A stretch of 64,000 bases of DNA from NCBI RefSeq assembly GCF_007923255.1, contig NZ_VOHJ01000004.1, forward strand, positions 1-64,000. Direction: 5' to 3'. Under the pieces are notes generated by a model. It saw only the letters and a program-made list of their open reading frames with translations. It searched no databases and was not told where the DNA came from. The position numbers were made by a program, and so were the translations under genes. The DNA is from Vulcaniibacterium thermophilum. Its GTDB lineage: Bacteria; Pseudomonadota; Gammaproteobacteria; Xanthomonadales; Xanthomonadaceae. Within the stretch, counting starts at the first letter, position 1; the number at the start of each line of letters is the position of its first letter. Below, in pieces: positions 1 through 1,644 of this stretch.

Positions 1-38
1 TCTCGACCCTTCGCGGTCAGGCGCGCATTCTTGTGCAT
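1..38 (-). CDS. IS481-like transposase, first 12 codons only (runs off the window)
   Basis: On the minus strand an ATG at 38 opens MHKNARLTAKGR and continues past the window edge. This opening closely resembles the N-terminus of IS481-family (rve integrase core) transposases, which commonly begin MHKNARLT followed by a Gly-Arg. A GAGGGG Shine-Dalgarno lies 7 bases upstream (39-51). Only 12 residues are visible, so no domain can be checked and it is unknown whether the element is intact. It lies downstream of lpdA in the same orientation, so read-through from the suc operon would enter it. Confidence 0.6.
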   Translation of the reverse strand, partial: MHKNARLTAKGR

Positions 39-112
39 GGTTGTTCCCCTCGCGGATGGGAGCTGGGTGTTTGGCGACATCAGCTTCGCCCTCCGGTCAG
101 AGGGGAACAACC
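39..112 (-). promoter_or_regulatory. Long hairpin covering the transposase ribosome-binding site
   Basis: A perfect 13-bp inverted repeat (39-51 and 100-112) directly abuts the transposase ATG. Inside it, GGA/GGG/AGCTG at 54-65 pair with CAGCT/CCC/TCC at 81-94 across small bulges, giving one long imperfect hairpin of about 74 nt. The inner strand of the outer stem is the GAGGGG ribosome-binding site. The distal arm (on the minus strand TGTTCCCCTC, 109-100) begins with TGT and could be the insertion-sequence terminus. An RNA that starts outside the element would fold and mask the start site. Confidence 0.5.
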
Positions 113-173
113 TCTTGAAACATCACAGCTAGCCAGCGGCGGAATCCGTCGCATCGCAGCGTGTCTCTTCGAC

Positions 174-201
174 GATTCTCGATTCCCCATTCCCGATTCC
201 C
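174..201. repeat. GATTCCC heptad array (4 units)
   Basis: Four consecutive 7-mers (GATTCTC, GATTCCC, CATTCCC, GATTCCC) end 6 bases past the lpdA stop codon. The same family recurs at 1648-1742 and 40909-41044. Such GGGAATC/GATTCCC arrays are a recurring intergenic element in xanthomonads; their function is not known to me. Confidence 0.8.
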
Positions 202-207
202 GGCGAC

Positions 208-1644
<1,437 letters not shown>

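Follow-up and report, generated by a model that had tools for sequence, protein, structure and literature searches.

A predicted antisense-RNA hairpin at the transposase start of IS481 elements, with a mirror-image fold in read-through mRNA

The left end of an IS481-family insertion sequence (IS) next to lpdA in Vulcaniibacterium thermophilum carries a perfect inverted repeat at the transposase start, and we consider it likely that this control region is built like RNA-IN/RNA-OUT of IS10, that is with an antisense-RNA hairpin whose mirror image masks the read-through mRNA. In the proposed mechanism, a weak outward promoter in the first transposase codons would produce an antisense RNA starting at the foot of the inverted repeat; this RNA would fold into a long hairpin, pair with the 5' end of the transposase mRNA and block its translation. 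The native mRNA would start between the two arms, as published for B. pertussis IS481, and have a more open ribosome site, while read-through RNA from a neighbour such as lpdA would carry both arms and, by energy calculation, fold shut. One inverted repeat would thereby serve as both brakes, with selection on the core pairing acting mainly through the antisense strand. Such a folded-RNA switch probably keeps the transposase from being made. For the family as a whole we lean, more cautiously, towards an old family of transposon antisense-RNA hairpins found in most main-group IS481 elements, with a promoter in codons 4, 11 and 12 and a stem that drifted while its antisense-strand pairing was kept, combining antisense control with silence upon read-through in Proteobacteria and probably in Actinomycetota.

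The element and its setting

The window, that is the whole stretch of 64,000 nucleotides analysed here, starts with the first base of contig 34 of its genome, and the remainder of the IS copy lies outside it. The element is represented by:

1..128, minus strand: left (transposase-start) end of an IS481-family IS, running off the contig; family taken from the full copy L017
129..132, no strand: CTAG target-site copy adjoining the tip; CTAG is at both flanks of L017
1..38, minus strand: first 12 transposase codons (MHKNARLTAKGR), an open reading frame that stays open to the contig end

The tip of the element is base 128 and CTAG follows directly. A CTAG-centred target is an IS481 trait, and this tetranucleotide was found at both flanks of L017 and at the one flank present in the window. 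On the minus strand, the ATG of the transposase (38..36) opens MHKNARLTAKGR. The window itself holds 12 codons of the gene; L017 is a full-length copy with 98% identity to window 1-132, and its frame of 311 aa matches the IS481 model NF033577 with 312.5 bits (cut-off 224) and contains the Pfam domains rve, rve_3 and LZ_Tnp_IS481. The same copy, from Silanimonas lenta DSM 16282 and also recorded as L047, is 1022 bp long with one 311-aa frame, and its ends agree at 20/26 positions. Together, the DDE transposase, the terminal repeats and the ~1-kb length of L017/L047 clearly place the element in the IS481 family by sequence, in agreement with the first-pass annotation, which had called the transposase IS481-like.

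Seven contig-end left ends, including the window copy, and two diverged internal remnants (L018 and L019) were found in the same genome. Both arms of the repeat are exact in the six other contig-end copies and in L017, while neither arm is exact in the remnants. Apart from this loss in the remnants, neither of the two outcomes that the first-pass annotation had named as counting against it came true. The six other contig-end copies align over just 126-134 bases, which suggests that the repeat collapsed in assembly. Contigs C40, C21, C17, C60 and C51 stop ~126-134 bases into the element, most of which is therefore hidden by the assembly. When the genome was searched with the transposase protein, C-terminal pieces (residue 240 onwards) and a single distant match at 25% were returned, and the central part of the protein had no close counterpart.

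The lpdA gene spans 1635..208 on the minus strand, 79 bp from the tip, so that its transcripts head into the element. No terminator-like site was found on the minus strand within 1-230, and the transposase is indeed downstream of lpdA in the same orientation, as previously annotated. A short repeat of the GGGAATCGGGAATGGGGAATC type is present at window 168-214 and ~1650-1740, with roughly 65 more matches in the genome; its direct and inverted copies lie in intergenic gaps such as lpdA-IS and sucB-lpdA.

Folding and conservation of the hairpin

The inverted repeat and the terminal repeat that it overlaps comprise:

39..51, minus strand: inner arm of the hairpin with a Shine-Dalgarno-like run, abutting the ATG
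52..99, minus strand: apical region with a second, weaker stem (AGCTG...CAGCT)
100..112, minus strand: outer hairpin arm, at positions 17-29 counting from the tip
105..127, minus strand: terminal inverted repeat, positions 2-24 from the tip, defined from 71 distinct elements

The arms GGTTGTTCCCCTC (39-51) and GAGGGGAACAACC (100-112) are exact reverse complements (13/13), which confirms the 13-bp perfect repeat abutting the ATG, and a Shine-Dalgarno-like run, GAGGGG, lies within 39-51, the arm earlier proposed as the ribosome-binding site. The minus-strand RNA from 130 to 1 folds at -52.0 kcal/mol (z -3.2; 1/200 shuffles as good). For the 74-nt hairpin alone, we obtained -39.7 kcal/mol (z -5.9) on the minus strand and -42.8 kcal/mol (z -4.5) on the plus strand, with 0/200 shuffles as good in either case. 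Searching window 1-300 against Rfam gave no match above the gathering score, two matches being below it (12.1 bits vs 37 and 9.6 vs 80).

For transcripts of the window leader that start at -75 or beyond, the 13 nt preceding the ATG had a mean unpaired probability of 0.00, against 0.56-0.65 for starts at -63 or closer. The same tendency was observed in 59/59 entries (58 clusters and the window, leaving aside seven clusters removed by hand as listed below as well as L023, L189 and L201, which have no assigned start codon), the start region opening up when the outer arm is left out (mean 0.51, vs 0.19 with the arm). By this modelling it is plausible that the ribosome site is closed on read-through RNA carrying the outer arm and mostly open on RNA that does not carry it. 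The earlier proposal that the hairpin hides the start from read-through RNA holds as far as the energy calculation goes, but it is incomplete, given that a predicted antisense RNA hairpin is encoded by the same repeat.

Masking of this kind requires a native mRNA without the outer arm. In B. pertussis IS481, the transposase start was mapped by 5'RACE, with a Pin made of -35 TGGAAA and -10 TTCACT (PMC11774165). Both strings are found between the arms in three Bordetella-type leaders, L109 (Bordetella genomosp. 2) and, from viral contigs, L173 and L181, at a place matched by the apical region 52..99 of the window; their native mRNA would thus be free of the outer arm. In these Bordetella-type elements the ATG is part of the inner arm, and the stem begins further in, whereas the inner arm of the window abuts the ATG. 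No sigma-70 match at 9/12 was found on either strand of window 1-230, and Pin was not recognised there. This would fit a native start at or outside the terminal repeat, for example at a circle junction, in which case all transposase mRNA would carry the hairpin as a standing brake; the mapped hexamers between the arms of the Bordetella-type leaders argue against such an arrangement, which we regard as distinctly unlikely.

The first-pass annotation had also suggested that the outer arm might itself be the IS end. In 71 distinct elements with both ends (right ends chosen by CTAG and at least 14/26 matches), the left end matches the right end best at positions 2-5, 11-13 and 16-24, and from 27 the agreement is at background. 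The outer arm occupies positions 17-29, so it starts inside the terminal repeat and extends past it: it overlaps the transposase end and is not a copy of it, and the suggestion was rejected. Outer arm and terminal repeat have GGTTGTT in common, and one could imagine that the repeat works at the DNA level, as a second, inverted transposase-binding site or as a cruciform. However, about half of the arm lies beyond the terminal repeat, the letters of the stem vary between elements while pairing is kept, and a DNA-level role gives no reason for the strand bias in mismatches reported below, which makes it very improbable in our view.

Our set comprised 130 leaders, 107 of them distinct and falling into 68 clusters at 80%, from genome contigs, plasmids, further genomes and viral contigs. 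Among the 80 genome-contig loci, 10 near-duplicates (L061, L063, L066-L069, L076, L079, L085 and L096) were dropped, together with 4 more that had too little upstream DNA. A comparable fold exists well beyond this copy, as the start region pairs upstream in 61/68 clusters vs 136/680 dinucleotide shuffles; the pass mark (at least 9 of 17 start-region bases paired with sequence more than 30 nt upstream) is also reached by 20% of shuffles, and a few of the 61 clusters may be chance. The seven clusters failing the mark are L062, which looks 5'-truncated, L117, L135, L137, L046, L188 and L167. For counts of helix start and composition, the seven set aside by hand were L062, L134, L135, L137, L046, L188 and L167, L134 being removed despite passing the pairing mark as its fold looks unrelated. 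By eye, the fold is present in actinobacterial plasmid elements of Streptomyces, Kitasatospora, Dietzia, Mycolicibacterium, Pseudonocardia, Tessaracoccus, Rhodococcus and Paenarthrobacter, and absent from the actinobacterial plasmid elements L046, L134, L135 and L137.

Two of the leaders have features of their own. In L135, a perfect 14-bp hairpin at 328-359 (GATGGGGCTGCACC, ACAG, GGTGCAGCCCCATC) lies upstream of the transposase start of an Arthrobacter IS481 element, at a distance of ~35 nt. This hairpin leaves the start uncovered and may represent a different control. On the viral contig L188, four copies of TGTCATGACA spaced exactly 24 bp apart (505-586) lie just upstream of an IS481-type transposase and, judging from the sequence, look like an array of protein-binding sites.

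Exchanging arms between 49 clusters reduced the mean pairing energy from -32.0 kcal/mol with own arms to -21.7 kcal/mol with swapped ones, and 0/10000 permutations were as good. The own arm ranked in the best 5% of its row in 27/49 clusters and beat every swap in 12/49, the latter being rare because some stems are alike. In a 35-row stem alignment kept in one register, from which three window-type rows (different register) and the rarely paired column pair 12-93 were left out, 89.9% of cells are paired and double-changed cells number 65 vs 26.3 in shuffles. Covariation reached 0.288 vs 0.136, with 0/500 shuffles as high and slid partners at 0.205 or less; further standard pair types were not raised in this alignment (14 vs 15.8 in shuffles, 496/500 as high). 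Chance or coding constraint might be invoked, as the inner arm overlaps codons in most relatives and the start base lies inside the helix in 50/61 clusters; yet the swap, shuffle and slide controls contradict this, and both window arms are outside the annotated frame, so that we find it scarcely credible.

In the main group, firmly kept pairs reach the base preceding the first shared codon (alignment column 91, 35/35), and the start codon is six bases further upstream than in the window. Past column 91 the pairs are patchier: 11-94 and 13-92 are Watson-Crick in 23/35 and 22/35 rows, and 10-95 is kept in 34/35, a pair in which the terminal repeat and a His codon may fix both letters. The stem and the predicted antisense start seem to stay in register with each other, unlike the start codon, although only a few subfamilies bear on this point.

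A predicted outward promoter and the strand probably under selection

The predicted antisense unit consists of:

3..8, plus strand: predicted Pout -35 TCGACC, complement of codons 11-12 (GGT CGA), from sequence only
26..31, plus strand: predicted Pout -10 CATTCT, 17 bp from the -35, from sequence only; it coincides with the position published for CATGCT in B. pertussis IS481
39..112, plus strand: predicted antisense RNA hairpin reading outwards toward the lpdA 3' end, with a start at ~37-39 placed from the -10

By comparing codon use in 63 cluster members over 147 conserved columns, we found that the three most biased residues are R12, N4 and G11. CGA encodes R12 in 40/62 members vs 240/2546 past residue 26, AAT encodes N4 in 45/55 vs 109/554, and GGT encodes G11 in 30/43. 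Read on the opposite strand, codons 4, 11 and 12 give TCGACC, 17 bp and CATTCT. The -35 TCGA and the -10 CAT occur together in 36/44 proteobacterial-type clusters (consensus score 6.7/12 vs a background of 2.4), and the predicted -35 is not conserved in the 21 actinobacterial-type clusters. These groups were sorted by hand, the actinobacterial type including viral contigs and L046 and the proteobacterial type including MAGs labelled outside Proteobacteria; L062, L137 and L167 are in neither. The predicted Pout of the window matches just 7/12 of the consensus.

In B. pertussis IS481, the antisense RNA starts 19 nt inside the transposase start from a Pout with -10 CATGCT (PMC11774165), which lies at the same codons as our predicted -10. 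CATGCT is also found on the opposite strand of L173. As -35, that source names TCGAGT, whereas the hexamer kept in the family at 17 bp spacing is TCGACC, TCGACT or TCGACG (PMC11774165 for the former); in L173, TCGAGT is 22 bp from CATGCT and TCGACG is 17 bp away. The outward promoter sequence in the first codons is conserved and codon-biased, and its activity is predicted. The antisense start would fall at ~37-39, at the foot of the stem (39), and the hairpin taken from this putative RNA 5' end has a stable predicted fold (z -4.5). By sequence, a candidate antisense promoter close inside the transposase start, as in IS10-like IN/OUT systems, is present. From window 39 rightwards, the predicted promoter would send antisense RNA into the lpdA 3' end (stop at 208), comparable to the B. 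pertussis antisense on fim2.

A G·U pair is tolerated in RNA whereas A·C is a mismatch, and each G·U on the sense strand reads as A·C on the antisense strand and vice versa. We counted mismatches in 72 of the 130 leaders that share one register and a 280-aa frame, without duplicates, the window subfamily or Bordetella-type elements. Of the cells in the six non-coding core pairs, 375 are Watson-Crick, 42 are A·C and 2 are G·U, and 13 fall outside these classes; letters shuffled between elements yield 70.8 A·C cells and 34.2 G·U cells. In a parsimony count, the core stem gained A·C 28 times and G·U twice, with 26 double changes from Watson-Crick to Watson-Crick. The mismatches were examined by column, by parsimony and with shuffles, the initial counts coming partly from one coding column (Asn codon); given the shared descent of the elements and a parsimony tree that was built quickly, the counts are a strong hint and not a formal test. 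With 42 A·C against 2 G·U, the core-stem pairing looks selected on the antisense strand and preserved mainly there. Sense wobble had been considered as a sign of mRNA selection, a candidate that was rejected when the reverse was found in the outer stem.

Other comparisons qualify this picture. The foot and coding part of the stem gained 15 G·U vs 8 A·C, and the outer arm is held there by the terminal repeat. Whole-leader z values barely differ between strands (sense -4.0, antisense -4.4; Wilcoxon p 0.023). A mutational origin of the bias was also considered: within the arms, changes of both kinds occur (outer arm, C>T 16 and G>A 11; inner arm, G>A 16 and C>T 7), while four-fold sites show C>T 148 and G>A 33 as raw counts without base-content correction. 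Drift in the outer arm only would give 62% A·C by composition of the whole helix, and the core has 42/44.

These counts bear on the first-pass reading taken alone, in which the repeat closes the ribosome site on incoming RNA and no antisense RNA matters. The opening of the Shine-Dalgarno region without the outer arm in the window, and of the start region in all 59 entries (the window included), is in line with it, and so is the location of the outer arm at the very edge of the element. The weaker apical stem also leans this way (G·U 24 vs A·C 7 in 61 clusters), its helices being short and the lean due partly to one shared TGGAG/CTTCAG column. But the core mismatches avoid sense wobble and the antisense promoter is conserved in codons, and masking without antisense RNA appears unlikely to us. 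We keep the antisense-RNA hairpin as the favoured explanation, with masking as its counterpart.

Relation to known systems and significance

In IS10 and IS50, a read-through hairpin hides the ribosome site of the transposase. With a predicted antisense hairpin encoded by the repeat studied here, read-through masking would be its mirror-image effect, as in IS10. We liken the element to RNA-IN/RNA-OUT of IS10/Tn10 for its outward antisense RNA, whose expression is predicted here, and for its read-through hairpin, although IS10 belongs to the IS4 family and our element to the IS481 family. The outward antisense RNA of IS10 blocks ribosome binding on the transposase mRNA (PMC5006887; PMC9330008). 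The overlap between the two RNAs is 35 nt for IS10 and 19 nt for IS481 (PMC11774165), and RNA-OUT ends inside IS10 at nt 47 (PMC5006887), whereas a terminator was not found after the IS481 Pout (PMC11774165). Antisense control of the transposase is reported for IS10, IS1999, IS30 and IS200, with antisense promoters in IS200, IS30 and IS1999 (PMC9330008); these last three belong to families other than IS481. In IS200, one stem-loop stops impinging transcripts and another occludes the ribosome binding site (cited in PMC3196728).

Another close system is B. pertussis IS481 (BP1118 locus, with Pin, Pout and the antisense RNA Rfi2), which has the same transposase family and, in Bordetella-type copies, a similar leader layout. 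Its antisense RNA binds the transposase mRNA in vitro by EMSA, and antisense control has been proposed for it since 2025 (PMC11774165). Outward promoters in the IS481 family had already been reported (PMC9330008), and a transcript most likely from IS481 Pout appears in Hfq RIL-seq chimeras (PMC12235514). Five elements of Amoebophilus have predicted hairpins within their first 50 bp, the two IS481 elements ISCaa11 and ISCaa12 not being among the five (PMC3196728). The words "hairpin", "stem-loop" and "secondary structure" are absent from the main text of PMC11774165, and we found no description of the hairpin in PMC11774165, PMC3196728 or PMC7335449. In the open-access literature we found no description of a hairpin in IS481, of its family-wide conservation or of a codon-embedded promoter. 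Antisense control of transposases is known, then, and within that literature the IS481 hairpin and its conserved codon-embedded promoter appear to be new.

A double brake that is conserved would account for how these elements can lie next to transcribed genes and yet stay off. The outward promoter further predicts antisense RNA into whichever gene adjoins the element, here the 3' end of lpdA. Finally, testing which strand tolerates G·U offers a cheap way to separate selection on antisense RNA from selection on mRNA in other transposons.
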